Positions 3,001 through 63,913 of a stretch of 64,000 nt of DNA are shown here, one piece after another. The notes under the pieces were generated by a model. The model had not been told where the DNA came from. It worked only from the letters and a program-made list of their open reading frames with translations, and searched no databases. Made by a program: the position numbers and the translations under genes. The DNA comes from Diprion similis (lineage: Eukaryota > Arthropoda > Insecta > Hymenoptera > Diprionidae). Numbering within the stretch: position 1 is the stretch's first letter; each line of letters starts with the position of its first letter. The stretch covers positions 18,622,001 through 18,686,000 of the forward strand of contig NC_060110.1 in assembly GCF_021155765.1 (NCBI RefSeq), in the 5' to 3' direction.

Positions 3001-5091
3001 TTTAGGGGTGTTTTCATCGATGATTATTTTGACTTTTTCTCGCTCTGGATCACCTTTCTTCTCATGTTCCTGATACTTTTTCTCGTTCGATACCATTCTT
3101 TCAATGTAACGTGCCATATTGCAACACATATTTTTCTGTTTATGATTGAAACGTCTGTGCTTTGTCGAATATTTATATCCATTCATTTTCAAATTCGACG
3201 CTATCTCGTCTGAGAAGTTACTTGATGGTTTCTTCAAATATGTTGTGATTTTACTAGGATTCAAAGTCTCATAGCTCTCCATATTACTCAAATTGTCCGA
3301 TGACTGCTTGACAATATTTGATAAGCTTGCTATTTCAACATTCACCATGCTGTTGCTGCTCCGGGAGTTTTTGTGAACACCTTTAGTTCTTTCATCGCTA
3401 CAATTAGCCAGACCATCTTTCGATTGATGTTCGGAAACTAAAAATTTGGTAGTATTATTATTCAATCCTTGAAAATCATCAATTCCAGATGCTGGATGTA
3501 TTAAGGTTTTCATTAGATTATATTTTGCATCATCGTTAACACTGCTTTTATCTTTTTCTGGTTGGGTTAATTTTATATCTGCATTAATAGTATGATTTCT
3601 ATAGTCTTGTTGTTTGTTAGGTCCTTTATGATCTGGCTGATCAGAATAGCATTCAAAATTTATTGAATTGGCGTTATACACTGTTTTGTCTTCAGAAATA
3701 GATGAGAATTTGTTGGCAACTAACAATTTTTTCAGTCTATCACAATCACAGTTCGATGCTTCCATCGAATTCGCTATCGATTGAATCTCTGTTTTTTTTA
3801 AAACATCTTTCTCGCAGCATATTCTCACACCCTTGCTCGGCTGGATAATATTACGATTGGAATCAATACAATGTTTTGTACAATTCAAGTTGGTCGGATC
3901 ACTTGTTCTACTTTTTGGCTCATGCTTTTGCTGTTCTTCAGTTGCAGAATTAACATTATTAGATTCAATCTTATAGGAGGAAAGGTTTTTATCCACATGT
4001 ATAGACTTCTTATGACTGAAAATTCTTGTTCGAGCTGCTCCATGGTTCTCATTGTTTGCGCTGATACCATCATGGTTGTCACAAGCATTGTTTGTTTGTA
4101 AAGTCTTTTTGATTTCAACAATTTTTTGATGATTTTTTTTCTTAGCTTCGTAACTCTTTTTCAAGTTTTCTACATTGTTTTTAATTCGTTGTTTATCTAA
4201 TTCGATTTTTTCCTGCATGGTGGCTTTGGCTGAGATTTTTTTCGAGAAATGGACATCTTGCTTCTTGTTAACTTTTTTCAGAATCTTCTCAGTGCCATGA
4301 GCTAATATTCCCTCTTTTCCCTTTTGCCTTTTGCCTCTAGGTACTTGCTGTGGATTGATACGCGGATCTGAGGACAAAACAGTTTTATAAGACACTTCCT
4401 TTGCATTAGGTGACTTCGTTTCCCCGTTTATTCTGTATGAAGTTTTTTGACAGTCATTTGATTCATTCTTGAGAATTTCTTTATAACCTGTTGATTTAGA
4501 CTGTTTTTTACGTATAGTTTTCACCTCTGATTTATCCTTTGAAATTGAAATCTTGGAATTTTTTTCCTCCTGCTTATCAGAAACTTTATGTCTTGGTTTT
4601 TCTATAGATTTAGGCACGACTTCGTTGAAGTGCTCTGGCCAACGCTTGTAGGTTTGATCCTTTATCAGATTTTCATGAATATGAGGACATTTTTTTATCA
4701 AATTTTTAGGTATTTGTTTTGTTGTTGCTGTTGACACATCAGTATTACTTTTATCATGTGTTCCATAACCCAGTTGTGACCCTTCAGCAGCTATTGAAAA
4801 ATGTAGATTTTCTTGGGCGTGTAAATTATGGTGAATTGGTTGTTCTTTACGTACAGCAAAGCTGCAAGTTTTAGCATTCGTTGTATCGTTATTAGCATGC
4901 AAGTTTTTTTCATTCTTGTTCATAGTAGTTAATGGAACCTGTTCGCAGCTTTTGTAGTCGACGTTAATATCAAATGTAACACCTTCCTGGTCAATGTAAT
5001 GGATCTTTATGCGCGATATGGCAATATCTTGATCCGCTGTATCGGTGGGACAGAGTGTGCGAGCCGTGCTCCCAGTTCTTTTACTAAACAA
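85..5091 (-). CDS. Long disordered Lys/Ser/Asn-rich protein, partial at its 3' end
   Basis: Not recognised. One reading frame of about 1,450 codons covers 740-5091. A donor at 740/739 (GG|GTAAAT, phase 2) fits an acceptor before 522 (TTTCGCAG|A, phase 2). The next exons are 522-306 and 252-85, and the last ends at a likely donor, so coding continues past the left edge. The main exon is low-complexity: charged, rich in Lys, Ser and Asn, with a Pro-rich stretch and a basic patch KLFKIFRRK near its end. The exon at 252-85 (TTQGTLLYLLAMKAKP) resembles an ankyrin repeat; this is a weak inference. The start is unclear. The frame opens after a stop with no ATG for about 56 codons, while another frame gives a protein-like stretch starting with ATG at 5237. 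Either a 5' exon or frame change is missed, or translation starts at the internal Met near 4920. Function unknown. Confidence 0.6.
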
Positions 5092-5237
5092 TGTGATTTG
5101 CTATGTATTGGTGAATCTTTACTGTCACCGGCTATACTTAGAAATAAACAAGGTCGCTGGTTCTTTGAAAATGTCTTGCTTCTTTCTAAGTGCTTCATTG
5201 CGTCTACCACGCTGTTCACAATTGCTGTCACAATCAA

Positions 5238-16700: not shown

Positions 16701-17652
16701 GTTAGTACGGTATGAAAAGTTCCCAACATTTACCACATTACCTTGAAATGCTATCTCTAAATTTTCCATAGTAGGTTTTGGAATTGATCGCAACAAGGCA
16801 TACATTGACATTATAATTCCAGGTGTGCAGAAGCCACACTGTGATCCATGAGCCTTGGCAAGACGTTCTTGAACAGGATGCAGCCTTGTTTTAACACTTC
16901 CTATCCCTTCAACTGTAGTTACTGCCATGCCATGCATGGCGCATACAGGCATTAAACATGCGTTTACCGCTAGATGACTGATAGTTTTCAATATAAGAAA
17001 TATAAGGTGTATGACTCAGAGATCTGTTTAAATAAATGAGCATATAATTTGCCAATATGACGATATGCTTCACAGTTATCAATAAAACATTTCTATTAAA
17101 GGATACACAATTTTGTGTGCAGAGCTGTCGTATCTTGAGACCATCACTGTACAGGCACCGCAACCACCTTCAGCACAGCCCAGTTTTGTGCCACACAATC
17201 GTACTGTGTTTACTGTTCAGGTTTTCTTTTCAATAGTGGAATAGATTATACTGTTCAAAATCTGTGGAATATTTCTTCAGCAGTGAATATTCTTGACTCT
17301 AACTTGATTATACGAACTCATCACCACTGCTGAAAGGATTCTTTAATAACACGATTTGTTGCTAGTGTCTATGTCAGTTTTCGGAAAAAAGGATACACTT
17401 ATTTCGCAGATAGTACAATAATGTCCACTCGGGATTGACGCTTTCATCCTCTATCTACAAAGTTGTGAAAGAAATAATGATGTTGTGATAAATTATTTCT
17501 AAAACTTTTGTAGCAACGTTTTTTGTAGATTGCAGTTCAAGATATCAGTTATCTCATACCTCTTTACCGTTGACAAAAAATATCAGTGTAGTGTAGACAT
17601 TTCTAGTTGCAGAAAGTTTCTGAACTTTCTTTACTTTGTAGGAAGTATGCAT
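10719..17652 (-). CDS. Xdh: Xanthine dehydrogenase (molybdo-flavoenzyme)
   Basis: Oxidises hypoxanthine to xanthine and urate in the cytosol. I resolve 24 coding exons whose phases all agree, from ATG at 17652 (exon 17652-17560) to the stop at 10719, giving about 1,374 residues. The two 2Fe-2S clusters are clear: [17 protein letters not shown] in exon 17203-17107, then [10 protein letters not shown] (16977-16742) and [15 protein letters not shown] (16557-16247). The FAD domain follows, with [19 protein letters not shown] at the 15509-15433/15364-15158 junction. The molybdopterin domain carries [59 protein letters not shown] with the substrate arginine, [13 protein letters not shown], and [11 protein letters not shown] with the catalytic glutamate. 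These favour XDH over aldehyde oxidase. The ATG sits just after an acceptor (TTTATTTCAG), so a non-coding 5' exon lies upstream. Confidence 0.95.
12836..12984. mobile_element. Small TTAA-flanked inverted-repeat element (MITE-like) in an Xdh intron
   Basis: TTAA at 12836-12839 is followed by CCTTTAGAGGACGGGG. The exact complement, CCCCGTCCTCTAAAGG, ends at 12980 and is followed by TTAA at 12981-12984. The interior is 141 bp including 16-bp terminal repeats and has no coding capacity. TTAA duplication with C-rich ends is the hallmark of piggyBac-type transposition, so this is read as a non-autonomous piggyBac-like MITE. It lies between the exons at 13229-13055 and 12762-12571 and should be removed with the intron. 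Confidence 0.75.
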
Positions 17653-20866: not shown

Positions 20867-23800
20867 TCATTTAGAAATTCGTAACATTGGTTTAGAAGTA
20901 ACTACTATCCAGAATGTGAGCCATGTCGGAAGCAAAACGCAGACCGTTACGCTGTACAGCCAATTTCCATAAACCATGGAATCGATAATGCCAAATACGA
21001 TCGCTTGCTTTGATGCTTGGATCCATTTGAGTGCAAGAGGAATGATTGTGTAGTCCGGGAATGTAAAATGCGTATATACCGCTACTACTGTACATGCTAG
21101 ACAAAGCGGATGTAGCAGTATCCAGGGTATACAACGTAAATTGTGGAATCTGAAAATTAAATTTACTTTTTACTCATTTCTCAGTTAAATCACTTGGGAA
21201 TTGTTGTATTCACGATTTAGAATATTAGAAAAAATTTTAGGAAATGTCGAAGAGGCAGTACTTTACTGGAAAACATCAGTGTTTTGCAGCCTCCTTCTTA
21301 ACATGTAATTAATTTTAATTTTTAATATCACAGATAAAGTGCTGCATAGTTCGGTTTTCAATAAGTGCTTACAGAAGGCACTCCCAAAATATCCAAGCAT
21401 TACTGTTTATTTCAATGAAATTGTTTTTAAGTTATTAATTGATTAATGTGAAAACAGCGATTCATCACCCGTGGCACTGTGTGCAAACGTCACAGTTATC
21501 AGCACAATGTTTCTTCTATATTTATCTTATCTAAAATGTATTCAACTTATAATTCAATAGTCAGTTATTGATGACATGTCTGGACAAGAAAAACAAAATT
21601 CGTTGAAAATTAGTAAATGAAATACTAGAAAATTGTGCAAAAATAAGCATAACAAGCTAGGTTTCCAAATAACAGACGTTTGAACAAATATGCACTGCAC
21701 TAGTTTTCGAGCATTACACGGTAGCAAATTAGTAGTAATTCTGTTTAGAAGTAATCAATGGATGTTTTATCATCAGCACTTTTATCATCAGATCTTCTTG
21801 TGTGATTAGATTATTGCAAAAAGTTATAACAGAAACTAAAAAAGAATAAGCTTATCAAACAATGTAAAATTCAATCTATCTTAATTCCTGTTGATTTAAG
21901 TAATAACTGCAAAACAAAAATATTCATACAAGTATAACTTAAGACATCTGACCTGGATTCGTTTCCCTTCTTTGGTATGACGGTTAAGGCTGCAGGAACA
22001 TACACAACGGCAGTTACTAACGCCAAGGAAAAGTTGTGCATTGAAATGCATAAAAGCATCGTTGCCAATTCTATTAATGCTATCACATAAAGTAAGGATG
22101 CAGATTCGTAGGTCTTATGCCTGAAAAAATAATACTGTATAGTTTAAGCTTCTGGTAAAAAGGTTAAAATTCTTGTTGGTGATGGACGTGACATCAATAT
22201 TATAGATTCTGGTTCACAGACGCCTTTTATTTTATATATCACCTTGTGATAATTGATCAGATTACCTTTCAAAACAGAGCGTTCCAATAAACATCAGGAT
22301 TGTGAGAAATAAGAGGCCTAGGGATACAGAATTTTCGGTAGCTAGATGAAATTTTATGCCTATGTAGGTAAACAGTCGTGGGGCAGACAATGTCGCTACC
22401 CCCAACATATGAGTCCAAAGTACCTCCCAAGCGATGTGTGACAGTACAAGTTCTTCCGACTAAATTCAATTATAAAAATTATTGAAAACTTTGTGAAGTT
22501 TGAAGATAAAAAAGGGTGAGATCAGCATTGACAAAATTTGAATATTCAACATTTTTAGCGATTTAAAATCATAATTTTTTACGATACGGTAATACATAGA
22601 AGGAAAGTTGATAAAAATTCACCTTGACCTGTTTAACTGGGTCACTGTCACCATCTTTTTTTTCAGGAGATTCTTGTAATTTAAGCCACACAGAGAATGC
22701 TTTTATGAAAAGCCCAGCAATAATCAGAGCTAATGGTGGCATATATAACCCTGTGAATAAAAATAGCACAATATAGTCTACACAAATTACACACTTTCAG
22801 ACAAAATCCTCCTATTTGGCCAAATTCGGAAGGATTGGTCCGACCAATGTGACCTAAAATGAATTTTATGTTATTTACTTACCAATAGAAATATACCTAT
22901 CTGTCGACGGTAACAGATAAAAAAAGAATGATTGATGGAATCGTTCTAATAAATTATTAAGCGAACGAACAAGACTTTCAACAACCCGTCCTGTGTTATA
23001 AATAGTAGATTCCGTCCCAGACCCAGATTTGGCAAAACCTTCCAATGTAATGGCTTCAATACCAAACCTTGAACACAAAAATAATGCTTAATATTGAATG
23101 ACTTGACCTTCAATAAAAACACATGACACACTAGTTATGATGCTTGTAACTAGATGTAGGCAATATGAGTAGGCCTATGTCACAAACATTGACGGTGAGG
23201 TATAGCATGGTAAGATGCGCTTCAGATGCTTTTTAGATCCAAATTAAGGCTTACTGAACATTTCTTTATATGAAATGTGTTCATACCGCAGCAATTTGTC
23301 TCTTATTTCTATATCATTTTCTATAAACTTAATATTGGTAACCCAAAAAACTGAGAACTCTTTGGAATTTTTAACAGTATCTGTTCAACATGTAGTCAGA
23401 TCGAATTGGGATTAGTCACCATAGCTTTATTTTGCAAAGCAATGTCGATGTGGTATGTGAAACAATTGATTTCACAGTATTTTTCGTAAAAATTTTGGAA
23501 AAAATCAAAACGGAGAGCTAAGACGCAACCCTCTCACAACAAGGTTTGGTCTTGAAACAAGTCGAGCATAGTAATATTTAATATTACATCCAATTATACT
23601 ATTACTCATCATCAAGTTCTTCGATGTGGCTCTGTTCCAAACAATACCTGTGAAAAACACCGTGATTTCCAGTCGGTACACCAGTTGCTTGCGTAGACAC
23701 CATCGACATCAGGGTAACAAATTGGTACCACCATTTTCGTATTTTGTCTTTTGGATTACTGTCTGCCCTGCGCTGAAATGTTCTCCGGATTCCTTCTTTG

Positions 23801-25274
23801 GCACACATTTTGTTTGCCAGATTAACGAGATCTAAATTTGGAAGTTGTCCATTTAAACCTTCGACCTGTTCGAAAAAGTTATAATGTATTTTTGCATAAT
23901 CCAACTGGCTACATAGTAAGTGGTTAATGAACTCCCCAGACACAGGGGTTCAGCTCCAATCACCTTGATGTCAATAGAGCCAATTTTGAAGGAGTGCATT
24001 TCCAAATTTATAGCAGCTTGAATGGACCCAGCTCTTCCTACCAAGTCGCCTGCAATTAATACCCCATCCTGCCCACAACTACAGCGATGATACGCCTCCA
24101 GCCAAGCTTGCATTCCTAACTGTTCGTGCTCAGTCACAACAAAAATGATATCCTTTGCCCAATAATTCTGTTCTGGAAGTGGCAATAATTATAAATATAC
24201 CAAAAGTTAATGCTAGAGCTGAGTTAAGACACATACTTCGGCAGAATTTGGCAAAAGCAAGTAATAGAGCTATCGATGGTGCAGTGGTCAGATGAATGCT
24301 GCTTGCAGATCGGTATGGTACACTTAATATTATTGCTTCGGTACTGGCGCTTCGTGGAGCTCTCAATATGCTGTAAACATTCTGTCCAGTAAACTGTAAA
24401 AGAAAAAATGTCATGCGGGATGAGCAGTGGTAGTGAATTTTGAAGAATCTTGCAGTACAGTTTCAAAGGAACCGAAAGTTGCCTCATTTTTCAAAATACC
24501 ACTAAATACGAAACTCTACTCGTGAAGTTTATATTTGAGAAATTAAGTGCAGTCGTTTGGTTAGATAATTTATCTTGTAACTGTGTTTCCAAAAATTAAA
24601 GCCCGATTTATAGAATCCTAGAGTAAGATTTTATTGATTTTTTTGTAGCCAATTAAAGGTCTTTTGTTTGTGAACCTGCAAAATAGTACTTTAAGATAGA
24701 ACCGTGCCGTAAAATGTAGTAAAATGAGCGTGCAAGTGAAAACAAGAAATAATTGTTTGTAGTAAATCTCACAAGCCAATAATGAGTAATGTTTCTCATC
24801 GATGAAGGAATTATGTTTCTAACAAAATTCATACCTTCTGTTGAGAAAGTGGATAATTAAGCGTAAAGTTATGAGTATAAACATCTAAGTTGAGTTGACG
24901 GAATTTTGCTAATAGCCACGGGTAGGGCATGTCATTTGGATATTCTTTCATCTCAGCGAGGAGCTCATCGTGAAATCGTTTGGCACCGCCATCTTCGTTA
25001 AATTCATTGGTAACCAATCCAGGTAGTAAAGCATTTTCAGAAAAATATGTATCTGTAAATTAATTTCAATTAAAATTGGATTGTACAATACTTCAAAAAA
25101 TCAAACAGTTACGCGTGATAAAATATACTTACTGTCATTGAATTCAGGATACGCCAGGGACACGAACCATATTACGCCGGTTATGTACAGCGTCAAGCAT
25201 AACAATTTTTCCCATTTTATAACAAATTTTATAACTTCTCCATTCCCAGCTCTGGGATCCGTTAAAAGACCCAT
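20867..25274 (-). CDS. Gpaa1: GPI-anchor transamidase subunit GPAA1
   Basis: ER-membrane subunit of the complex that swaps C-terminal propeptides for GPI anchors. Ten exons: 25274-25133, 25052-24835, 24393-24237, 24172-23964, 23865-23648, 23067-22883, 22750-22623, 22459-22266, 22120-21953 and 21149-20867. Phases agree and give 633 residues, close to the usual length of about 620. The start MGLLTDP is the family's; an in-frame upstream reading exists but is not needed. An N-terminal transmembrane segment (CLTLYITGVIWFVSLAYP) is followed by the luminal domain with VYSILRAPRSASTEAI, YWAKDIIFVVTEHEQLG, VEGLNGQLPNLDLVNL and LLERFHQSFFFYLLPS. Several hydrophobic segments follow. In the last exon the phase-correct frame ends GNWLYSVTVCVLLPTWLTFW, a typical membrane C-terminus. 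Confidence 0.95.
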
Positions 25275-25603
25275 TTTTTCCACACCGGGGCGATCAGAAG
25301 AATTCAAAACAGCGGCATATAACCTCAAACATTCGCGCAAGATCGTTTCCTACACTGAAATTACTATTCAAACGCGCAGATAATCCTGAATAGTGATATT
25401 TGAGGTAACTAATTACTCTAGTGAAATTAATTACATCACTCAAATCTTATACCACGTTATTTATAACAAATTTTTACTAGTCAACAATCTGCATAATCAA
25501 TTTTGACAGCCCTGCCCACGGCTAGCGGCCATCTTTGTAATCGATACTGACTATAGCTCTCGAATTGTGATTATCGGCTGCGTAGCGCGGATTCGATATA
25601 TCG
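25275..25603. promoter_or_regulatory. Compact bidirectional promoter, Gpaa1 and kringle receptor
   Basis: Only about 330 bp separate the two divergent start codons. The stretch has a YY1/Pho-type core GCCATCTT at 25528-25535, an ATCGATA element near 25540 and a DREF-like TATCGATG at 25599-25606, which overlaps the proposed receptor ATG. No TATA box is obvious. This fits a shared housekeeping-type promoter. The overlap also warns that the true receptor start may differ. Confidence 0.5.
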
Positions 25604-28600
25604 ATGCTGTGGCGGATAATTTTCAAATCAATACTTCTGATTTCTGATTTAATTTTCCCATTTCCCATTTATATCGATGACGGTGATTCAAACCTAGACG
25701 AGGAATCCCGCTGGGCTTATGCTGTATTCTTTTTCACAAGACCTTACGACGGACACAAAGAGCTTCAAACGACGTATTTTGCACAGTGTTCGACCGTAAA
25801 AATCACTGATACATGTAAAAATATATGTATAACGAGATTCACTTGTTCGACTGGTAGTTGTTTTGCTAGAGCGAAAATTGTGCATCCTCTATGGATATTG
25901 AACCATTTTGTGCAAATAAACTGCATGATATTCACAGTAATTAATCAATCGTTCAGGAATGATTTGTTCTTTTACTTATACGCTATTGTTACTGGATCTA
26001 CAGATTTGTATGATAACTCATTCAAGCGCTTCGAAATGTAAATAATTCGATCCAGGACACTTATTAACCTCCACAAGTGCGATTGTTTGAACATTCTGAG
26101 TCCATTCATGTTTTATTTTCCACAGCGGAACGTAACGCGACCCGTACTGATTTGTCCAAATGTAAGCTCACGCAATTGGGTACCGATTACATGGGTTCGA
26201 TCACGACAACTGCTGGAGGAATTCGATGTCAGATGTGGGATTCGGAGAAACCTCTTCATCAGGTTCACTCTTACTATCCCGTCACGATGTTTTGTTATTT
26301 ATTCTTGCGGTGATAACATAACACGAACAGCTCGGCTATGTCTGATCCATAAATTTTTACGGCCAACACTCATCGTTGATGATTAATTACGCAGCGCATT
26401 TCTTATGACATTATTTTAATCAACGCAGGTCAGCAAATCCATTACTGATAAAGACTTTCCAGAAGGATCTTTACGACTTGTTAGAAACTATTGTAGAAAT
26501 CCAACCAAAGATCCTAAAGGTCCTTGGTGTTATACAATGGACCCAAATCTGATTGACGACGAATGCGAAGTGCCTCTGTGTAATTTTGGAGGTGAAAATT
26601 CAGGATTTTATCTGATTTTGTTATATCTGAGCACTATACCAAAGTATCGCTTTCAACTTGGTGATTCATTTCAATTAATGCCGTATTCATTTCTTTTAAT
26701 CATATTTATAGAATGTAGAATATCAGGAACAGGTTCCGAGTACGGTGGAACTCGAGAGACGTCTTCCTCTGGTAGAAAGTGTAATTCTTGGGACAAGCGT
26801 TTGAAATTGGCCGTTAATAAGGTAGAATTTTGAGGGTCCTTACATTTTGGAAAGTACCGATGGGTCTTATCACCAGCTCATAATCTATTGTGTCATTTCT
26901 TTAGACAGAAAAATTCTCCAGCAATCACTTCTCAGATCTGTCCCGAAACAAGGCCAAAAACTTCTGTAGAAATCCGGATAGTAGCGCAGGTGGTCCATGG
27001 TGCTACGTTGATTCAGAAAGTTATGACATTGTAGAGAAAGAATACTGCAGCGTTCCATTCTGCGATGACAAAGGTTCGTATGAAGAATTAAAATTGTTAA
27101 TTTATTGATTACACTAACAAAAATTTGACAGATGAAACTTCAGTGGAACTTATTTTTTTCTGATGAATTCTTGTCATTCAGCGACTGATGCTTAGCCTCA
27201 CACATTATTCATGATACTAATTTTCATTCATACAGATTGTCTGGTTTATACTAAAAATGCTTCGACGTACTCAATTCTGACAAGCTTGAACAGCGCTTTT
27301 GGCAATATAACGTTCTTGGTCAAGCTTTGGGATCCCGGTGATGAGCAAATAGTACGGTGTGAAATTTTTATTTGAACTAATACCATTATTTAGCTCTAGG
27401 TGTGTTTTGGAGACTAAGGTGAATTGTTGCTTGAAGAAATGATTAAATTTAGGGCCAGGCAAGATTACTATTGACTAATCTACAAGTGCCGTCTTCAGCT
27501 GAGATGATCGCCCAGAAATGGGGAGCAGGTGTCGAAATTCTGATATCAAATTCTGGAAGTGGGCAAAAATATCCACGCACTGATGTTCGTCTCTGTCTAA
27601 TAATATCTGTACGTTTCAATCCAGCAAGAAATAAGCGAAAGATTGTTTGCAGGAGGAGATAGATTTTGAAGAGACTCCCAATATTCTCACTGGCACCAAA
27701 TGGACAACTCTCTGGGTTACTTGGGGTGGCGGTTTCATCTCTGTTGGGCGTTCTGGTTCATCGAAGCCTATTTTCTTAGACGAATTTAGACAGAAGAACA
27801 CGATATCGAGCATGTATCCAGAAAGTTTTTTCCAGTATGGTATAACGGGCACGGGCATTTTATGGAGTATGCCATTCTGCGAAGCAAGTAAGCTGGCCAT
27901 TTCGACCAAACTTCGTCAAAATGGTGGTATTGTATTCTCTGTTGCTTCTGGCACTCCGTAAGGCCTTGGGTTTCAGCATGTGAGGTTCATACTACTTTTG
28001 GACTTGAGTTCCTAAGAATTTGGCCCTTGTTGCAAAGTAACAGCAGTCATGATCTGCAATTTCAAATCAGAGCTAGTCACGGGGCAATGATACAACTGAC
28101 GCAGACTCCCGCTGTTCCATTCCCACGTTTTTTGGTACGCATGTCTTGTTCGTTGAGAATCATATTAGTCACAAAATCTGTTCATCTATTTTCAGTACAT
28201 TGATCGAGTTGCAGAAAGAGTTGTGCAAATAAATCGCTTTCAACAGATTCACTTTTTACAAATTTCAGGTAGTTTTGGGACAGTCTGGTTCTACTCTTCT
28301 CCTGTATCAAGAAAAGGAAACTTCAACGAAAAAAATTTTATTGGACATCGAAACTAAACAAATCCTCAATTTTTGGGCCTGGCATGAATTCACAATTAGG
28401 TTCGACTAACACTGCAACCAATTTTTCGTTTCAATCGTTTCATGTTCTTGACATGATTTTAGCATTTTTGGTATGGCAATACAAATGTTTTGGCATCGGG
28501 ATTATGGTAGAGAAAAAGTTTTCTCGATTCAAGACGACGCCATTCAGACTGTGAGGTGGTTCAGTATTGGAAGTGAGAATACCATAGCATATTGGACACT

Positions 28601-31600
28601 TTTTTGTACTCCAACAGGTGATTTTATGAACGTTTATTTGCATCGCAAGATGTTAATGTTTGCATGAGTGTACATATTGAACTGAATAAAGGATTTATCA
28701 TTAAAACTCAGTAGATACAATAAGGTAGAGTCGTAACGATTCGTATTATTTGCAGCAGAGAATGCGGTCGAAGCTCCGTGGTTTCCAAATTGCATTTCTA
28801 ATTCAGCAGATTCAAGATATGAAGGATCCCAGTGGATGGCTGAAGGCGAAGTTCCATGCGTTCCGTGGATATTTGACAAGGTTCGTTTTCTTCTGCAATT
28901 TTTTTGCTCGTCCATTTATAGAATGGAACAACTGCCTTTTTAGTGCAAAATATCAGTCATTTAAAATTTTTCCGCATCGGATAGATCCCTAAAGAAGATA
29001 GAGAAGATGACCATTTTATCGATGGATCTGCACTGAAAGCACTAAATAAATGCAGGAATCCCACAAATGATCCTGAAGGACCTTATTGTTATACACTACA
29101 GGATTTGCAAAGCTCCGTTGAAAAACAGTACTGCTCCATCAGAAAATGTAGATCTTCTGGTGAGTTTTGTTAGATTCAAAAAAAAATTAGAAACTGTATC
29201 ATAACGAAGATAATTTCCAGAATGTCGAATGGCTGGTACAGCCAATGACTATATAGGAGTCATGTCTGTAACCCGTTCCGGTCGTAAGTGCGCTAGGTGG
29301 TGGACAGGATACAACCAGACAAATGTTACGACTAAAAAAACACCCAGCTTCAAATCTCTGATGGTCAAAGCACTGACTAGTCTGAAATTCAAGAGAGAGA
29401 ATGCGTTGGAATATAAATTACCTGATACGATAAACGAACCTTGGGATAAGATTGGTCTTCGCTCTGGATTGCCCAAGGATTTTGACTTTGGGCACACACC
29501 ACGACGAGTTGCCCGAAGTTATAAACAGTCGGAAGTGGACAAACTTGTTACACCTCACGGACTTTCCATAAATTCAGACAGACACGGTACTCTGAAATCA
29601 GTTGGAGATGGTGATTGGCTTCAGTCAAATTCAAGCACTAGGCAGTTATTAGCTAGATATAATTTGTTTAACTTAAATCGAAGGCTACTTCAAGAGCAAG
29701 AAACTTTAAAAAAGGTTAATCTGCATCCAATATTCAATCCATATCAAGCAATTCAGGAAATAACCACCGAATTAAATGGAAAAGACGAATTTTTCAATAT
29801 GGCCCGAGAGACCGTTCCACAGGAAAACATCTCAAGAACGACTTCGGAGAGTTCTAATTCGATATCGACAAATCCACCATACGGTGAAACATCGGAAGAC
29901 ATCACAATTTTTACAACTTCAAGCCCACAATCAAAAACTGGTAGCACGGAGAAACCATTCAGGTCACGTGATCATACGAAACCGATTCATCCAGTTGATC
30001 CACTTTACCTAAACGACACGCTATATCCTGAGCAAAGTGTTAAAAGTGCAATTAACTTCTGTCGAAATCCTTCGCGTAATATAGCTGGCGCATGGTGCTA
30101 CACAACAGACCCGGAAGTACCACAAGATCTCTGTAACGTCAGAGACTGTGAGCAGCCTGGTATAATTATAACTCTTTGTTAGATCTACTAACTGATTTTC
30201 TCAAATACTTAAATTAATGTTTCATAATTTGTTTTCAAATTTTTCATCTGATTGCAGAAGAATGCATTTTCCTCGTTAGAGGTCACGGTAGTGGTAGACG
30301 TCTGTACGTCTTACCGGATTATCGTTCGGAAGGGCTTCAATTTTCTCTCAAAGAATGGGAACCCGATCGTCCGGACTCGATAACTTTTACGATATTAAGT
30401 GAAGACGATGTGAAGTCCCGTTTTATTCTGAAAGTTGGTGCCATGAAAAATGAGAAAGTACTCTTATACTATGAAACCGAAGGGAAGGGTAAGCTGTCCG
30501 AGCAATTACGAATTATTGTACATGTTTATGATATACTCAAGATTCTTGAATATTGGATTGAATCATCATCTCTATTCTATAAAAAATTATTCCTAAATTT
30601 AACTATATCTAGAAATGAAATTAGTGAAAGAAAAGACGTTACCTCATCTTTTATACCTTGGAAAGTGGACTGGGTTCGTAATTCGTATGGAACGTGGCGG
30701 AGTAAAACTCTACTATGAAGGTGCCCCGTTTCCATTGTTTGAATGGGAAGACCCGGAGCCTGCCAAAGCGTTCCTACCCGTTTATTATCACTACAGTAGT
30801 GAAAAAGGCAACACTATCGGAGTTGCCTTCAAGTGTAACACAAGTATGTATGCATAAGTGTGACAATTAAGATTTTTGAAACAATTTCCTTGCTGTTTTA
30901 CTATACTTTGGTATCAGGCAATGAGCCTTCGATTAAAGTCTTCAGAACATTGATATTTACAAGCAGAACCACCATGTACATAGAATGTCACATAGAAGAG
31001 ACTACCACGGATCGATTCACGAGAATACTGCCAATTTCTATTTGGGAGACTGAGGAAACGCCAAGTCCTCACAGACTGGTACTTATGGTTCGAGGACAGG
31101 GAGTCATACTGCTCCCTTTGTTGATGCTGCCTACTATGCCTGTGTAAGCGTTTTAATTCTGCTCTGTCAGTTTGTTCATAACTACAATCACATCGTTCGT
31201 TTACAGGTACTACGCATTGACTATTGGTGAAAAGGGACGATGGGTGTTTTTTATGAAAAATAAGCTTCCCGTCGTTCACGTACTTCACAAGCAAAATGCA
31301 AAGGGACCATTGTTCAATTCCAATACTTGGACCAATTTGACGGTAGAGTAAGCATGAGCCAACCTTATCGACTGTCTCTGATATGTCATGGTCAATACGA
31401 AATTGATATTTGATAAATTGAATTTAGTCAATCAGGATTTCGAGCATTTTGTGCTGAAAATTTTGGTGTACTTACATGACGAATTGTTTTTCAAGGTTTT
31501 ACAACTATACCATCAAGCTTTTGCGCAATGATACCGAGGTATTCCATTACGAGCATGATTTACCTTTGCTGTTCTACTTTTTTTCTCTTGCTGTCGACAA

Positions 31601-33378
31601 AGGTGGATCAGTTACATGGGCCGCAAATTGTATACCAACAGGCACGTTCATTTATCATTTTATAAGCACGATTGTAAGAATCTACCACAGAAATGCTCTT
31701 TTTACTCTACGTCCAAGTCTTCTGGTTATCTTATTCTCATCTCTGCCATTTCAGACATCGACGGATCTCCGGTGGATGGTGGATGGTCAGAATGGGGCCC
31801 TTGGAGGTGCAGCGTTACTTGCAATGGCGGGATAGGCGTAAGAAAACGGATATGTAACGACCCTGAGCCGAACATAAGGGGTCAGCCATGTTTAGGACCG
31901 AGTACGTCAAGTGGCCGGTGCAACATGAACAAATGTGACGATGTAACGGACGGTAGTATAAACTTGAACACTAGATTATATCGTTCTAATCGTGTAATAT
32001 GTGGTGTCAACATACATATTAATTGACATTTTATAGTCACCCTCGAATTGGTAAAGAGAAAAATCCGAACCCAGCATACATCATTGATCGTGAAGGAAGG
32101 TGATGGTGTGAAGCTTTTAGCCGATCCTGATATCGTTTCGGCATTGAGAAATGAAACGCCAAAGTCTGACATCAATTGGTCCCGCAATGGAATTTTTCTG
32201 GAAGAAGAAGAGGATAGAATCAAACTCGAAGATACTGCAGTATGTGAGTGACGTAGAATATCGAGTCCTTCTACCAAATTTGACACACATGTTTTGAGCA
32301 TTTAAATGATAAATTTTCTCATCTTTCAGCTATATCTTACACAATTGTGAATGACTCGGGTGTATACACGCAAACTTTGCACCGATTGGATGACTCTCAC
32401 CTTATTTTTAAAATCATTACGCTAGCGGTTATTCCCGTCGTGAATGAAATTGTAACTCGAGAAACTTTATCCTTTTCTATGACTTGCCACTGCGTTGTTC
32501 TTGGATACGTTTATTCGGATCTTAAAATATCTTGGAAGTTGAATGGCCAAGTGTTTAAAGATTATGGAGTATCAACCCCTGTTGCAGTGAGTACAAATTT
32601 GCATCAAGCCTGGCGGGTTGTTAATGAACGGGTATTGTATTACTTCGAAACTTGAGGGCCGCTCGGCATCACGTAATTACGTCACATACCCATAATTTAT
32701 TTGAACCGATTTTGTTAGGTTCGTTGATTTATTTATTAGGTAAATGTAGATCATGTTCGTAAAGTCAACACGTCCCATCGCGGAGAATGGAGATGCGAAG
32801 TTGAACAAAAGGACTTGAATTTCAAGTGGACTACCAACGTGGTAAAAGTTCGAGGCAGGTATTTCTAGCTCTGTTTGTAACAAGCTTATATACTGCAGCT
32901 GAATTTTATATCGTAGGTGTGGATCTTATTACCAATCTCTACATGGTAACGTAATTTCAGTTTCAAGCTATAAGCAGAGAATCGATCAACGTTAAGTGAG
33001 AGGCATTTAATTTGCTTATTATGAAACATTTTTACAGTATTGGGTCCTCCTAATTGGCGCACTCATTTGATGGAGGATGAGCTAACACGTCCGATATTCG
33101 GTTGGATGCCGAACGAAAGTTTCGTCGCATTCTCAGCATTTCTATTGACATTTTTAATAATTGCGGCCATAATTGCGTCGACGATTTGGTATTTAAGGTA
33201 TTTTAATACGTTTTCTGGAGAATTGAACTGTATAATTATTTATAATCGATCGAAATTCAACCGTATTCTAACACACAGATTTCGTGAAAGCCTCAAGTAC
33301 AAAGAGCCACAGACAGAAAAGCTAATTGGTAATGAAGAATCAGAAAGTGAAAATCTAATCGACGATAAAAAACGGTGA
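25604..33378 (+). CDS. Single-pass receptor: kringle x4, FAMeT-like x4, TSP1, Ig x2
   Basis: No named gene recognised. About 25 exons give about 1,650 residues. After a possible signal peptide (MLWRIIFKSILLISDLIF; exon 1 ends at 25682 or 25814) come kringle 1 (26126-26262, 26429-26591) and kringle 2 (26712-26821, 26905-27073). Two FAMeT-like domains follow: 27236-27351, 27453-27584, 27653-27887; then 27977-28134, 28269-28399, 28463-28617. Kringle 3 is 28756-28880 and 28985-29159. Kringle 4 is 29221-30159. FAMeT-like domains 3 (30258-30488, 30613-30843) and 4 (30918-31143, 31207-31347, 31496-31641) precede TSP1 (31755-31952). Two Ig-like domains occupy 32037-32243 and then 32330-32586 plus 32740-32858. 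A 29-nt exon (32917-32945) leads to 33038-33378. Each kringle keeps six cysteines and RNP..GP/AWCY-like cores. The helix FLLTFLIIAAIIASTIWYL and a short acidic tail end the protein. Probably a cell-surface binding protein. Confidence 0.85.
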
Positions 33379-34784
33379 AGCAAGGCGGTTCAGGGGCGAA
33401 GAAAAGTGCAGGAAAACGATCGGCACAAAAAAGATTTTCTGCCCTCTGCTGCAACGTCGCATGACCATAATCTACGATGTGCCGCTTGTCGTGCGTGTCT
33501 TATAAGTTATTTATAACTGCAGTTGTAATTATATGAGCGATTTCCGATCACGCAGCGGCAAAAATAGAACTCGATACGGCCGTATTCGATTTGTTTATTT
33601 TTAAAAAAAGGAAAAATAGTCACACCTAGGCATCCGTAAGAAGCCGAGTCAATTCTCGGTTCGACGCACCTTTACGCACTACCAAGGATACCTTATAATC
33701 TCCAGTGTGGTACGCTTCTTTCAAGCCTGCAGTAATCCGTAATGCCATGTTGAACCTTCATACCAGAGAGACGGCGTGCAAAACTAGTTTTCAATGGAGA
33801 AGTTCTCCCCATCAGACTCATTCATTTCCAGAAGAGAAGAAACCGCGGCTAAAAACCCCTCGGCGAACGAGTAGATTGAAGAACAAGATCATTGATTTTC
33901 GCCAGTCCGTATACTTACCGTGTCGTCTCGCGTTGGTGTCGTCCCGATTTTTCATTTGAAAAAAGTCCGCGCTCCGCTAATTACAAGTATATTGCGTGTA
34001 ACAGCTAGTATATATAACTTATTACACGCAGATGCATGCATTAGCAAAGAACTGGCTGCAGCCGTCGAGTGCTTGCTTTTTCTCCAGTATTTATATAACC
34101 ATGTGCAACCCGCAGACGCGGACGGCGATGCACTTGGCACACGTATACCTGATGTGCACGCATGGAGCACCGGAGGGAAAGGTAAAAATGAGGCTGGTTG
34201 GTTGGGACAAAATCAATGCGAACGTAGAAGAATTGACCGGAGGATGGTGCGTGCATGGCAGGCATGAAGGCAAGAGCATGAGGCCAGGGGAGCGACAGGT
34301 GCCGAGTCGCCCACGTGGGTTCTCTTAGCAGTAGAAGACGGCTTCCTTGTGACTGCTTGGAGTCAGGACGACGCCGAGTAAGCGAGTGGGGGGATCCATT
34401 CGGTAGCAAATGCTGCTAACCCGTCGCAAGGTCAAGATCAGTCGGTTAATCTCGTCCAGTGAGCGAAGACCTTGCTTGCACCTTGCACAATTATTGGAAA
34501 TAATTCGTACTTGTCTATGTTCAGGAATAAAATAAATATTGCTACATTATAGTTTGATTTTTCATCAAGAGGCAGAATAGCGCGGCAAACTTGTACGAAT
34601 CATTTCCACCTGTTGACTTGAAGCAATTCTTTCTTCTAGAAAGAGATATTTCGTTTGATGGTGTTTATAGTGCATGAAACTTTCAAATTTTGCCGGGTTT
34701 TATCCCCTCTCTCAATTCACCGCTAATCACTGTTACACGCGCGTGTATTCACTGCACCAGCTATATTATTAATCGCAACTTGTT
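33379..34784. other. Intergenic region, receptor 3' end to PRDM 5' end
   Basis: Contains the receptor 3' UTR and, on the right, the PRDM promoter. The part at about 34030-34440 is richer in GC than its surroundings and has overlapping open frames on both strands, none resembling a protein family. No RNA gene was identified. Confidence 0.45.
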
Positions 34785-37700
34785 ATGGAAACTTGTGTTT
34801 TGATTCCAAAAGAGTTCTCATTGGTTCTTGCTACCGATCCGTCGAACAAGCTATTCAAAAATGCACCCTTCTCCGAGATGCGGATCTCGGTGTGGTCCAA
34901 CGTATTTATACCTTCGGGAACGCTTATATACCCGTTTCAAGGATCAATCAGATTCGATAAAATTGATTTGTACTCTCTTCTCGATGACAACGATGTAAGT
35001 ACGACGTATTTTCTTCATTACACACGACATTATGGTATCATAACGACGACTCGATGTAAATACTAGTCTTAAAACGTATAAATTTTACTCTGTTTGAAGT
35101 CGTAACTTCAAAAACAACACCAAATATCTATATTTTTCTACTAGTACTGCTCTACAATGTATATCCAATTGATTGTAGTTACATCGAGAAAGGAACACTG
35201 TAGTGTGAACATCATTTCCGGTCGTATGATAATCGGGAACCAGAAACACGTTTTTGTTTTAGTCTGATCTAGAACCGTCTGATCAATCAATAACTACCGA
35301 AATACACAGGTTGATCTTGAGTGATTAATGGGCTGGTATAGTTTTGAGATGGAGCTTTAAAAGTGATAAATCAATCGTGGAGGAAACAAGCCAATCAGGC
35401 AAAAAAATATCTAAAATACACAACACACCTCCACGTTTCATTATACATATTTCATGTTATCAGATGCGAAGAGACAGAATTTTAATTGATACTATAGGAC
35501 AAGCTGTTTAGTCGAATGCACGTACAAATGCAGACACATGCGGACCGCTTAATTGGTGACTCTCGGAGGATTGAATTTATACTCGTTATTAACTTCGTTA
35601 AATTATATTCTCCCTTGCAAATGTTCCGACCGTCATTATGTTTTATTACGATCGAGTTCATGTCTGTAACGTATTTTAACACGATTTACGAGCACGTCTT
35701 CGGGATGTTTCGAATGTGCACAAATATCACGCATATGTGCTACGAACGACCCGATAGAGTATTTCCTTTTGTCATTGCCTTTTCTGAAAGGAACAACGAA
35801 CATTATCTACACGTCTATACTTTAGCTAGTAGCATCGAGAGCTCGCGTCTGAAGAGAAAGGTATTATGATTCAGTTATATTGAGAGCTGCAGTGTACGGC
35901 TAGGCACGCCTGAAGTAAATAACAGTTATTACCTTATTTTCAAAAGTTATGTTCCCATGTATGTTATGCGGAACAACATGCTTTCAGTTAGTAAAATCAG
36001 TTGTAGGCAGACTGCCGAAGAGTCGCACAATTACCAAACAAATTCGCTTAGTTGATCAGAATTTCAGAAATGCTGCAAGGTATATTTTTTTTCAATTCCT
36101 AATCACCTAGTCAAAATATTCATACGACATTCTGGATATTAAAAGATTTAGGAGGAATTGTTGATCATCTACTGTCATACTCTTACGTTTTAGATACGGC
36201 GTGAGTACGGCTGCTACGACGAAGTGTCATTTTCGAATTATAATCTAAACTACCGTCAGTGTAATTGGATAAGGTTTCTGCACATTGCACAGACTTACAA
36301 CGAACAAGTGAATCTTATCGGGACAAAAGTCAGGGGTAAGTTACTTGGGAGTTCCTCGAATGAACAGGGTTCATGTTATATATTCATTCATTTCGTCGCC
36401 AATACGTTAGACCCGATGATAAGTGCATGGATGTATAATTGTAAGTGGTAGAATAGGTACGTAGGTTTAACTGCCTACATTTTTTAAATAACAAAAGTCG
36501 AAACGAAAACATTTCGGATCGTAGGAGAACCGATATTTGAGGTGATCAAAGACGTTCAACCGGACACGGAATTGGCGGCCTGTTTCGTACCTGTGGATGA
36601 TCACGATTTAGTGTTTATATCACATGCTCAGTGGACACGTACTGCGATCTACAGGTACACGATCGATTCAATATTGGACGGTAAGTAGCTTGTTCATGCA
36701 CATATAACTTTACTCACGATAAAACTGTTTAATTATCAAGTTCAGGTTCGGTTATGAAGTAACGTAGCGCAGTGCAGAAATCGTTGCTGTGCAAAAAGTC
36801 TGACAAATGTTCCTCTAGGCGTATCGTGCAACGTGAGTTTGAGTGCGGCTGTAAAACATTAAACATAAACTCACTAGCCACTCGATCCCGGAACGGATGA
36901 ATTTGCGAAGCTCCAGCACTGCTTTTTCTGGGTGGAGTTAACTTTTCTCAGACGGAGCTGCAGGCCTTGCCTGTTCAGCGCTCCTGGAACACTTGATTCG
37001 ACTGTAAAGAATACCTCGTAAAAAATTAACGATCTAAGCGGGTCTGAAGGCAGTGCCTATAAATCTAGTCTGATAAAAATAGTTTGGAATAATATGGTAC
37101 CTGTAATTTCATTAGAACAGCGAATTACTGACGAAAAGAGGGAGTGGCTCTTGGTTTCCGAGTACCTGAAGTTTTTGTGGATTTCTGAAGTATACATTCT
37201 GCTTTGGAAAATAACTGAAACTGAATTGTAGTATACATGTTCTCTCTTTTTCTCGTTTCCTCTCGCTATATACACATTATGTTTATGTATATTGCCTCGG
37301 AGGCTCTATTCGAGTTAAACTTGGTAAGAAATACCGAGCCTGTTGTCAGTAGTCTGAACTGGGTTGAAGATGGTAGCTGGGTGGAGTAAACAGCTAAGGA
37401 CCGTCCAGTTGCCACCCATTGTACTGTCTTTCAGTGGCTGTGAGCGCTACACATTTGAATCACAAGTAGCCGCCTTGATCTGCACCGACAAAAATTCCAC
37501 CGATATTTGCATTTCAGATTTGTAGGCCTATTCTGTATTTCGCGTATAATTTAATCTCACGTTCTTCTTTTCACGAATCAAATTACGTTTAAGGGTCGAC
37601 GCCACTTATTCCGGTGCATATTTACCTCACCATCAAAATTCGGCTTGCCTTCAATTCATTGCTCGCCATTGTCTCCTCATATAATCATCTTAGAATCCAC

Positions 37701-41924: not shown

Positions 41925-44900
41925 TTAATTACCACGACCTGTTATTTTGTCAATCAAGGTTTGGAAGACAATCCTTACATCCATTAAAGCTTCGTCCAAT
42001 GTCGGACCGAGCAAATAGTAGAAGACTGTTGGTGAGCTGAAAAGCAAATCAGTTCATTTTATGTAAAATCTTCGACCGCATTAACCAGTAGCTCTAAATG
42101 TTATAGAAATAAACCATCCAGGCAGGCTGATTCTGACGGCATTTAAAGTTTACCATAAATATGCAGAATTTGCAGTTGATATTATCTCTGGATATCTTCG
42201 TAGGTATTACTGCGCTGAATTATTTCTACTGTAAAACTAAACTGCTTTCTTTACCTTGACGACCCTGCGTCTTGCGAACTACCGGAATCTTCGCCTTGCG
42301 ATTCTTTTCTCGGTGGAACAGCAGTCGCCATCATAACAACGGTGGATTTTCTGGTTGCAAACGGGATTGATTTCAAGTCATTCGGCGTGACCTGTGAAAG
42401 TAAGCTTTTCGGAAAACGTGGTCAACTATTGAGACCCTCCCCTTGGTATAACTATCTCTAGCAGAAAAATACCGTCCCCGATATAATATTCTTTTGATTC
42501 ATTAGAACTGTTAACTTTATTCTGCCATCACCAATTGTCAATCTCACCTTAGATTGGCGCTGGTTTGAAGTATCGTCTTGAATTTCTGTCTCCGGTGTAT
42601 TTTGATCTAGAATACTTGCCAAAAGGCATGTCTCGGAATTTGTGACCACAGGTGGTAGTTCGATGTCCTTATTCTTCAAGACATTCATCGAATGTTTACT
42701 AGATTTTGACCGGACATTAAACAGCGCTTCAACCGACTTTTTTGCGCCATTTCGAATTAACAAAACTGCATTTTCGGACTTGCTCGTTTCTACTTCATCG
42801 GCAGGGTTGAGATATTTGCAATTTTTTTCAAGCTTCGTAAGATCTGACGGATCAGTCGCTCCGTTGTAGGTCACGAAACTTTTATCGTCGAGCTTTTTTC
42901 CCGTTAGATTTCTGCCTGCGTTCTCGATATTGTCATTTCTCAAGACATCAGTCAATGACGTTTTTGTACTTGTTATCTGACGGGCATCAGCCACACTCGT
43001 TTCAGCGTTCTTATTCGAGGCAACGGAGTCGGGTTGAGAGCTTCGTTTTTTGAACAATCTTTTCACACTTCTCGAGAACACGCTATCAGTCTTGGTAACA
43101 CCGTTTTCTCTCCAAGTCTTCTTAGAACCATCGGCTGCCAGTATCGATGAATCTGCCCTCAACTCATCTCGGTTCTTTTCATCCACCCGTCGCTTTGCAG
43201 GCTTGGATTCCACTTCTTTTCCAGTTTCAATTCGCCTTCTCATGTAGCTCTTCGCTACGGACAATAGGCTACCTTTTTTTAGTCGACTCGATTGTTGACC
43301 TACTTGTTGCTCAGTCTCAACCGTGCTGTTCGAATCCGTTTGCCTTACAGGTGATATCACAACCTCAGATACATCCTGTACGATTTCAACATTGTTCGCT
43401 GTGATGTTAGCTTGATCAGATTGTATTAAAACATTATTCAATGCGTATTCGTGATTTTCCATCCCCTGTTTACTGCTTGATTCACCCTGACTTATCGCTA
43501 GGTTATTAACAATCAGCACTTCGCTGTGGGTTGCTGGACTTTGAGGATAGCTGACAGCTTCTAGTTGGGAACTTTTCACTTTTGACTTTGACACCTGCTT
43601 CTTACAGTCTCGTCGACTCTTTTGCTCGTTAGTTTCAAGCTTGTCGTCCATTTGCACCGAAGTCTTGGATTTTTGCTTGGCTTTGTCACTCAGCGAAGCT
43701 TCGAAGGAATCCCTATCTTCTTGGCACTTTACTCCACCAGTTTTTCGACACTCCAAGGAATCCTGCTCAGTTTCATGATCAGTTTTATCGACGGAATGAT
43801 CTTCCGTCCCCGTGTGATCCTGTCTGCTTTTCACCGACGCTCTGGATAAAAGCTTGCGTATCGTCGAAAAACTTTTCCCCGAAGATCTCTTGGGACGTTC
43901 CTCTACGTTATCTTCCTCCTTACATGTATCGTCGTGTTCGTTCGATATGTATTTAGCGCTCTCCACCATCGGGGCATAGGAGACAATTGTACCTTTGTTT
44001 ACGTGGATCTTTTCCGAAGGCTTTCTCATCTCCTCGTTGTCCCTCAACGAATATTTCTTCGTTAAATCATCAGCCTCGAATCTCTTGCTATTGGAAGATA
44101 CTCGATTTACCTCAGTCGAAGCAGCTAGCAAAAATTTATTGCCTAATTTTTCTGTACTGATAATTACGTCGTCTGATGGTTCGGTCGCATGTTGGGACTC
44201 CAGAATTTGGTAGGAACGTTCGATGATTGATAGTTGTCTGTAGTCCTTATGACTTTCCGATCCAGGAACAGAGTCCAATGATTTTACAGCGACAAGCTCC
44301 TCTCTGTTGTCGTCAGCTACGTCCGACTTACGCTTACCGATTTGATGTTCGTTTCCATCCGCATTCGAATGGCTTGACGTTGACAGTGGTATTTTCGTAA
44401 CTTCAAAATGGTCTTGAGAACTCGTCTGCGCGTTACCCGAAACTCTTTTTTTGGAATTAGTGCTAAAAATCCGAGACAACGAATTGGCAAATTTCTTCAT
44501 GTTTCCGTCGATCTTTTCCTCATTATTTTTTATGTCATTATCTAGCGTCCCGTGTTTTGCCTTCACATCTTTACTATTTTCCAGTATTTTTTTCTGCTTG
44601 TTTCTTTTGGTACCGTTACTTGATTCGGAAATTAGTATGGCATCTGCGTCATCCGGTTTTTGCTTTTCTTGCGTCTGTTTTACGGACGATTTTGACTTTT
44701 CAATTTTTTGTTTTACGGAGTCATTTTTAACGTCAGTCTTATTTATCGACTCACTTTTCGGCGGCTCTTGTTCATTCTTGTTCTTCGGTATCGATTTTCT
44801 TGAGGACTTGAATAAGGACTTTAGGCTTTTCCTTAAAATCATGGTATCGTCGTTGACAATGGCTGAGTTCGCATTTTCCCCTACAGATTCCACACTGTTT

Positions 44901-53388: not shown

Positions 53389-63913
<10,525 letters not shown>

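Follow-up and report, generated by a model that had tools for sequence, protein, structure and literature searches.

The window, a 64,000-nt stretch of Diprion similis DNA in which no tRNA or Rfam family was found, carries on its forward strand (25604-33378) a gene that we modelled with 25 exons encoding 1619 amino acids. All coordinates below refer to that strand. The product comprises, in order, a signal peptide, two kringles (K1 and K2), two FAMeT modules (F1 and F2), two further kringles (K3 and K4), two further FAMeT modules (F3 and F4), a TSP1 repeat, two Ig-like domains, a transmembrane (TM) helix and a tail. The modules, their order, the phase-1 introns at their boundaries and the gene model in outline are all established. 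The first-pass annotation had described a single gene of this architecture with one TM helix, and the spliced model, Pfam, the intron phases, the hydropathy profile with its one main TM peak and a gene finder support that description. The profile search proposed there was carried out with Pfam on the protein cut into nine pieces: all four kringles, each with six cysteines, matched Kringle (PF00051) above the cut-off, as did three of the four FAMeT modules for Methyltransf_FA (PF12248) and the TSP1 repeat for TSP_1, and the Ig models scored under theirs.

Gene model and intron phases

Exon 1 (25604..25682) supplies the start codon ATG and a hydrophobic signal peptide (hydropathy 1.75 at residues 5-24); its end is uncertain, 25814 being preferred by the crude gene finder. 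Introns at module boundaries were in phase 1 in 11 of 11 cases, compared with two of the 13 other introns (Fisher's test, 3e-5); the splice sites of the 25-exon model, on which this statistic depends, were hand-picked with an eye to the frame. Introns range from 44 to 443 bp, the longest being intron 1, which follows the signal peptide; all others are 183 bp or shorter.

The gene finder, whose training set was neighbouring genes, XDH/GPAA1 pieces, was run at five penalties and predicted a single gene at every one of them, with the span 25604-33378 at three. Scores at these three penalties were 114-163, and the controls reached at most 23.4 (reverse strand) and 15.5 (10 shuffles); a further set of three runs gave one gene each time. 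Only 12-15 of the 25 exons were identical between the gene finder and the hand-made model, and several exon ends differed; the bounds of exons 1, 3-4, 6-9, 14, 20 and 22 are tentative. The parts whose genomic location was tested, F2-K3 and the K4 insert, were found in one place only in the 269-Mb genome.

We regard it as improbable that two or more adjacent genes were merged here, or that splicing or truncation upstream of the TM exon yields a soluble form, as the introns other than intron 1 are short, the module boundaries are in phase 1 throughout, and one gene was returned in all five and all three gene-finder runs. Nevertheless, under the harshest of the five penalties the gene was ended at 32655, before the TM helix, and the junction 32854/33038 between the second Ig-like domain and the TM exon can be joined only through a GC donor or through a micro-exon of 29 nt. 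AATAAA or ATTAAA is also present in 5 of the 24 introns and absent from the 1022 bases 3' of the stop codon, the first signal of this type lying near 34526 (by eye). The GC donors in the model number two, one at the end of F4 and the candidate at 32854/33038. Both had gone unmentioned in the earlier annotation, as had the ~225-residue insert in K4, the repetition of the kringle-FAMeT cassette and the ESENLI motif of the tail.

Kringles, FAMeT modules and their repetition

Of the 42 cysteines in the protein, 24 form the four six-cysteine kringles. K1 (26126..26591), K2 (26712..27073) and K3 (28756..29159) are each encoded by two exons with a phase-0 intron inside; exons 3 and 4 in K1 were merged by the gene finder at four of the five penalties. 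Pfam recognised K1 and K2 together as two stretches of Kringle (E = 1.4e-37) and K3 at 4.3e-11. K4 (29221..30159), a single exon, is broken up by an insert between its second and third cysteines and matched Kringle in two stretches (1.6e-13), which became a single stretch (5.2e-14) when the insert was removed. The insert (29304..30035, limits that take in a few kringle residues) occupies the site where K1-K3 have their phase-0 intron and gave no Pfam match. An AlphaFold model of the K4 exon had a pLDDT of 35.6 and was not used further. In viral contigs, the kringle pair gave 9 and the three-kringle alignment 18 pattern matches, none of which was confirmed, and the first 536 residues had no match in phages or plasmids; the divergence of the FAMeT alignment was too high for the viral-contig search.

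The top match of K2 in the PDB was plasminogen (1.5e-39), and HGF, prothrombin and ROR chains were also among the best 60 of its 89 matches. Such matches would suit a protein of the Ror/Nrk or HGF/plasminogen type, in which the kringles serve Wnt or growth-factor signalling or lysine binding. Plasminogen, HGF and prothrombin resemble the Diprion protein in having several six-cysteine kringles, and the Ror/Nrk receptors, which carry Ig-like domains, in combining a kringle with such domains in a type I receptor. However, the Diprion protein has four kringles and a tail of 33 residues, and Pfam found no Fz, kinase or protease-type domain in the nine pieces. A plasminogen-type lysine site consists of D55, D57, R71 and W/Y72; this set is complete in none of the four kringles, which by their residues do not look lysine-binding. 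Kringles were found at two other loci of the genome, namely a separate Fz-kringle locus followed by a hydrophobic stretch (L001) and a separate kringle locus adjoining SRCR-, LDLa- and lectin-like exons (L005, by eye). Given the missing domains, the incomplete lysine sites and the separate loci, the Ror and plasminogen readings appeared very improbable and were set aside.

F1 (27236..27887; three exons; PF12248 2.9e-5) passed its cut-off by 0.1 bit (24.3 vs 24.2 bits), and gave z values of 9.4 and 2.3 when compared with two classic FAMeTs encoded in the D. similis genome. One of its introns (27609-27652) is only 44 bp long and the bounds of exons 6-8 are uncertain; two splice forms of this junction had similar Pfam scores, so that Pfam does not settle it. 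F2 (27977..28617; three exons, the start of the first uncertain) matched PF12248 at 2.6e-6 and F3 (30258..30843; two exons) at 2.4e-5. F4 (30918..31641; three exons) had no PF12248 match in Pfam and no similarity to either classic FAMeT (z 0.3 and 0.0); it is homologous to F2, judging from a z of 10.5 and a common intron position and phase. Thus, of the four FAMeT-like modules claimed earlier, F1-F3 pass Pfam, and F4 fails there and joins them through F2. No match was found with F2, F3 and F4 in NCBIfam or with F2 and F3 in PHROGs, and PDB searches by sequence with F2, F3 and an F1-F3 profile gave best E-values of 0.73, 0.01 and 0.15, none convincing. The C-x-x-T/S tail noted in the first-pass annotation is present in all four modules (CEAT, CTPT, CNTS and CIPT), and is weak evidence because the pattern occurs nine times in the whole protein.

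Kringles and FAMeT modules had been called interleaved; they do alternate, but are better described as a kringle-kringle-FAMeT-FAMeT (K-K-F-F) cassette that occurs twice. The sequences suggest a simple tandem duplication of this cassette. In its favour, F2 and F4 group together in the tree (88/90), K1 pairs with K3 (78/80), and the top internal match of F1 is F3, at a z of only 2.3 (F1 shows no similarity to F2, z -0.8, or F4, z -0.4). Against it, a three-residue insertion and VEK-x-YC are common to K2 and K3. No fork in the trees was starred, and the program warned of long branches.

Membrane-proximal modules and possible function

The TSP1 repeat (31755..31952; WSEWGPW and CSVTCNGG) matched TSP_1 (PF00090) at 1.6e-10, with 41.4 bits against a cut-off of 21.6. 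Ig-like domain 1 (32037..32430, end approximate) contains NDSGVY, and Ig-like domain 2 (32431..32854, start approximate) has stretches of Ig_2 and C1-set under the cut-off. The cysteine list agrees with the earlier observation that the first domain has no cysteine and the second has C, W and C. Ig_3 matched domain 1 with an E-value of 1.6e-5 but with 25.8 bits, under the cut-off of 30, and four other listed Ig models were also under theirs; in the PDB, domain 2 matched Ig C-region chains (best E 8.7e-7). We call both domains Ig-like by motif and weak profile only.

The stalk and TM helix (33038..33197; helix at residues about 1562-1586) include the top hydropathy value, 2.75 at residue 1562, which, with that of the signal peptide, would fit a type I topology by hydropathy only. 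Values above 1.6 were also seen at residues 1156-1158 and 1165-1167, both in F4, and at 1433-1434 (1.98), between the Ig-like domains. In the spliced model, the putative cytoplasmic tail (33279..33378; 33 residues including a split codon) contains ESENLI, ends at the stop codon and has no Pfam domain. Motifs of the form [DE]xxxL[LI] are sorting motifs of the clathrin-adaptor type. ESENLI is weak evidence, since shuffling the tail 20000 times produced a motif of this type in 1796 cases.

We tentatively propose, with a confidence somewhat short of even, that the protein is a multivalent recognition receptor taken up via its tail. One gene would encode a surface receptor of type I whose binding modules make up a long rod; TSP1 and the two Ig-like domains would form its stalk, ahead of a single TM helix and a tail that is short and acidic. 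The FAMeT modules may act as non-catalytic ligand-binding modules for microbial or self glycan-type ligands, and the kringles, lacking lysine binding, may bind proteins or serve as spacers. Multivalency would confer avidity, and ESENLI might carry bound cargo into the cell; a rod of ligand-binding modules with such a tail would therefore suit uptake by a receptor of the recognition or scavenger kind. The earlier proposal, that this may be a multivalent extracellular binding receptor, is a reasonable one; the kringles do not look lysine-binding.

The main rival of the uptake reading is an adhesion or guidance receptor without uptake, with TSP1 and Ig as in UNC5-type receptors, in which kringles and FAMeT modules would attach to matrix or to partner cells. 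The Ig and TSP1 modules would fit either equally. In the PDB, TSP1 matched thrombospondin-1 (1.5e-30) and, weakly, UNC5 chains (UNC5B 2.7e-6), and the Ig-like pair and TM helix are present; nevertheless, no intracellular signalling domain was found in the 33-residue tail, and we consider such a receptor rather unlikely.

By analogy, the uptake reading may draw support from FAMeT proteins described in print as non-enzymes linked to recognition. The available text of PMC10015273 states that FAMeT methylation was never reliably shown, and that of PMC4361637 that in jhamt-mutant flies the additional loss of CG10527 made juvenile-hormone deficiency no worse; with the family's catalysis disputed in these passages, the FAMeT-as-enzyme reading was set aside. 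Against this, excerpts of other papers treat Methyltransf_FA as a juvenile-hormone enzyme (PMC9363628, PMC9358689). An oyster "Methyltransf_FA domain containing protein" (MFCP) with "microbe binding activity" is cited in PMC9358689, and a passage in PMC5712788 lists CG10527 among fly phagosome complexes and presents DM9 as a pattern recognition receptor that binds mannose. Against the uptake reading, the evidence on microbe binding and DM9 comes from other proteins, and the link of CG10527 may rest on its DM9 part.

Relation to known families and significance

Like the FAMeT family (PF12248 with DM9/DUF3421, e.g. fly CG10527), the Diprion protein carries modules of the PF12248 type, which in that family stand singly or several in a row; unlike it, it has kringles, TSP1, Ig-like domains and a TM helix in place of DM9, which Pfam did not find in any of the nine pieces, and it thus falls outside the insect FAMeT family as defined by PF12248 with DM9. 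Elsewhere in the genome PF12248 was found at three loci, and all three adjoin DM9 repeats within the 9.9 kb examined at each. CG13492, a possible fly relative, is named in two insect papers whose available text does not mention its domains. The oyster MFCP, compared by its title, shares a Methyltransf_FA module in a reported microbe-binding protein. CPAMD8 of the alpha-2-macroglobulin family, described in excerpts of PMC9363628 and PMC9358689 as having Methyltransf_FA and Kazal, shares such a module inside a large multidomain protein; Pfam found no macroglobulin, thioester or Kazal domain in the Diprion protein. No text joining kringle with Methyltransf_FA, farnesoic acid or FAMeT was found in the literature searched, within which the combination is, as had been claimed, undescribed; insect protein databases lay outside that search, and unnamed orthologues may well be deposited there.

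It is attractive to speculate, although we rate it as distinctly unlikely, that duplication of the K-K-F-F cassette gave rise to an unrecognised class of arthropod multivalent recognition receptors, with the "methyltransferase" modules as ligand-binding heads and an exonised intron as the long flexible loop of K4. The protein places kringles in a multi-kringle, receptor-like setting outside those of Ror and the proteases. It would be an exception to the statement, in the available text of PMC10015273, that insects possess only the pfam12248-DUF3421 type. PF12248 is still named after a juvenile-hormone methyltransferase, though its catalysis is doubtful according to passages in PMC10015273 and PMC4361637. 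Its use four times beside kringles in a receptor-like protein speaks for a role as a binding module, and the Diprion protein would be a clean object for identifying its ligand.

Gene model and neighbouring genes

Hand splicing of positions 24001-35000 yielded a receptor-like gene on the plus strand (25604-33378), whose 25 exons encode 1619 residues. The intron donors are GT in 22 cases and GC in two (31642 and 32855), and all acceptors are AG. Because splice sites were picked to keep the reading frame open and the domain patterns intact, the frame does not count as independent evidence, but Pfam domains that span exon junctions inside modules do. The introns that we chose to assign as module boundaries are all in phase 1 (11/11), versus 2/13 of the other introns (Fisher's test, P = 3e-5). 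Intron 1 is 443 bp long and the longest thereafter is 183 bp, leaving little space for a gene end and a promoter. Two observations count against the model as drawn: AATAAA or ATTAAA is present in 5 of the 24 introns, and neither occurs in the 1022 bases 3' of the stop codon, the nearest downstream one lying, by eye, at ~34526.

With 2049 codons from pieces of the neighbouring xanthine dehydrogenase (XDH)- and GPAA1-type genes as its training set, a crude gene finder was run at five intron penalties and predicted a single gene each time. Three runs placed the gene end at 33378, one at 33604 and one at 32655, upstream of the transmembrane (TM) helix. The three runs ending at 33378 recovered 21-22 of the 25 exon starts and 16-17 of the 25 exon ends of the hand model, with 12-14 exons exact. 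Scores over the five penalties were 91-189 on the gene strand, against 0-38.9 on the reverse strand and at most 45.6 in 10 shuffles. In a first run, the penalty was laxer and selectivity was poor: the gene strand scored 253.6, the reverse strand 101.5 and the best of 20 shuffles 140.6. That run gave 12/25 exons exact and an end at 33604. Exons 3-4 were merged at four of the five penalties, and exons 24-25 at one. Together with the Pfam domains across junctions, the phase-1 boundaries and the short introns, the gene-finder runs make the span and the single gene proposed in the first-pass annotation likely. The ends of exons 1, 3-4, 6-9, 14, 20, 22 and 24-25 are doubtful, as is the Ig2-TM junction, formed by a GC donor or, alternatively, a 29-nt micro-exon.

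Upstream and head to head lies a GPAA1-type gene (20870-25349, minus strand), with Gaa1 matches in two open frames (2.2e-25 and 1.5e-9) and a first open frame, assigned by eye, that had no Pfam match. Its upstream-most open frame ends, by eye, ~250 bases from the ATG of the receptor-like gene, and a common promoter is possible. Further upstream is an XDH-type gene (10818-17216, extent by eye, minus strand; Pfam Fer2_2, MoCoBD_1 and MoCoBD_2), while C2H2 zinc-finger exons follow downstream on the plus strand and open frames resembling the dipeptidyl-peptidase (DPP4/DPP10) family were seen by eye at 53659-63928 on the minus strand. Two stop-free minus-strand frames had no Pfam match: one of 1454 residues (739-5100), rich in K, S and N and proline-rich near its end, and one of 2684 residues (42461-50512), rich in S, K, E and N. 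In the latter, short basic-aromatic stretches such as KSLKSLFKSSRKS recur (seven matches to a loose pattern).

A repeated cassette and an enlarged kringle

Kringles (K) and FAMeT modules (F; PF12248, Methyltransf_FA) are both present as first annotated, albeit not simply interleaved: the order K1 K2 F1 F2 / K3 K4 F3 F4 is one four-module cassette in two copies, a repetition that had gone unreported. Three FAMeT modules pass the Pfam cut-off, F1 barely. Against two pieces of classic FAMeTs (PF12248 with DM9) from the same genome, z scores were 9.4 and 2.3 for F1, 7.5 and 3.8 for F2, 6.3 and 4.9 for F3, but 0.0 and 0.3 for F4, which counts as a fourth module through its homology to F2 (z 10.5). 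In 12 control comparisons of F modules with Ig, K2 and the K4 insert, nine fell below z 0.5 and the maximum was 2.0. The remaining pairs gave 4.6 (F2-F3), 2.3 (F1-F3), 1.5 (F3-F4) and below 0 (F1-F2 and F1-F4). F2 and F4 also have in common a phase-2 intron at an aligned place. The F2-F4 kinship supports a putative block duplication of the cassette, on which the kringle relationships are ambiguous. Each FAMeT module has a cysteine near its start and another at its end (221/386, 390/533, 952/1101 and 1127/1271), suggesting a closing disulphide. F3 (30258-30843, plus strand) matched the PDB chain Protein C10 (8ag3) over 88 residues at E 0.023, probably by chance.

The first-pass annotation had likewise not reported an insert of ~225 residues in K4, where Cys 2 and Cys 3 are 256 residues apart, versus 29-33 in K1-K3. 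The extra residues occupy the place of a phase-0 intron found 7-13 codons past Cys 2 in each of K1-K3 and missing from K4; a kringle at another locus of this genome is likewise split internally. The insert had no Pfam match, and a protein search placed it at one position in the genome. Its coding score in its own frame (0.092 per codon) lies within the range of 16 left-out windows of the remaining coding sequence (0.055-0.177), versus at most -0.023 for 1000 stop-free intron-like sequences; an alternative frame scores 0.123, so that the score does not select the frame. The chance of 224 stop-free codons is ~1e-7. Third-position G+C is closer to introns (insert 0.339, introns 0.335, remaining coding sequence 0.400). 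An intron turned coding and a late insertion at an intron site would both fit.

The annotated TSP1 repeat stands, with the motifs WSEWGPW and CSVTCNGG, which we take to fit C-mannosylation and O-fucosylation patterns; profile support for the two Ig-like domains is weak.

Putative function

The residues D55/D57/R71/W72, which we take to be the lysine site of plasminogen-type kringles, correspond to T/D/I/D, D/S/E/K, T/D/E/K and S/N/P/Q in the four kringles, which thus differ in having no lysine pocket. No domain was found in the tail, which carries a single [DE]xxxL[LI] motif (ESENLI), a type seen in 9% of shuffled tails. What the sequence shows of the protein is its anatomy; judging from literature on other proteins, the FAMeT modules may be binding modules. 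In the portions available to us, methylation by FAMeT is described as never reliably demonstrated (PMC10015273), loss of the fly FAMeT CG10527 in a jhamt background as without effect (PMC4361637), and CG10527 as a member of phagosome complexes and DM9 as a mannose-binding receptor (PMC5712788). A reference-list title on the oyster Methyltransf_FA domain containing protein (MFCP) was taken as pointing the same way. On the opposite view, the domain is handled as an enzyme in the parts seen of PMC9363628 and PMC9358689, and likewise in several further paper titles. From the FAMeT literature, the kringles without lysine pocket and the tail motif, we tentatively favour an uptake or recognition receptor; weighed on the same evidence, an adhesion or guidance receptor seems somewhat less probable.

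Occurrence of the kringle-FAMeT combination

Profile searches covered 269 Mb in 60 contigs, and their counts are lower bounds. Outside the receptor-like gene, PF12248 gave at least eight exon matches (12 candidates scored) at three loci, each of which also showed DM9 in the 9.9 kb retrieved; one of these FAMeT loci (L024, G000:C2:10818000-10827900) combines several PF12248 matches with two to DM9, all on one strand. The gene's own FAMeT modules were absent from these eight; being split and weak, they presumably escaped detection. At least six kringle matches (10 candidates scored) comprised three in the receptor-like gene, one at an Fz-kringle locus and two at a third locus, where SRCR-, LDLa- and lectin-like exons were recognised by eye. 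The Fz-kringle locus (L001, G000:C8:8468067-8471303), presumably Ror/Nrk-like, combines a weak Fz match (22.1 bits, below the cut-off of 32.1), a kringle in a single exon (1.5e-23) and a hydrophobic stretch, in that order. The protein stretch from F2 through K3 found only the receptor-like gene and one chance-level match on contig C11 (E 0.567, four internal stops). By these counts and this search, the combination appears to be unique within the genome as far as searched.

The modules are known, and we did not find their assembly described in the literature searched, in line with the earlier remark that no named protein is known to combine them: among 5.39 million papers, no publication pairing kringle with Methyltransf_FA, farnesoic acid or FAMeT was found, and no kringle-FAMeT protein was apparent among the titles and abstract openings listed by broader searches. 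Orthologues are likely deposited but unnamed in insect protein databases. According to the parts of PMC10015273 available to us, crustaceans and insects are the only arthropods from which PF12248 with DM9 has been reported, which lends support, short of proof, to a pancrustacean and probably insect source of this genome. The same paper states that insects have the pfam12248-DUF3421 type only; the receptor-like gene, if from an insect, would be an exception to that statement.
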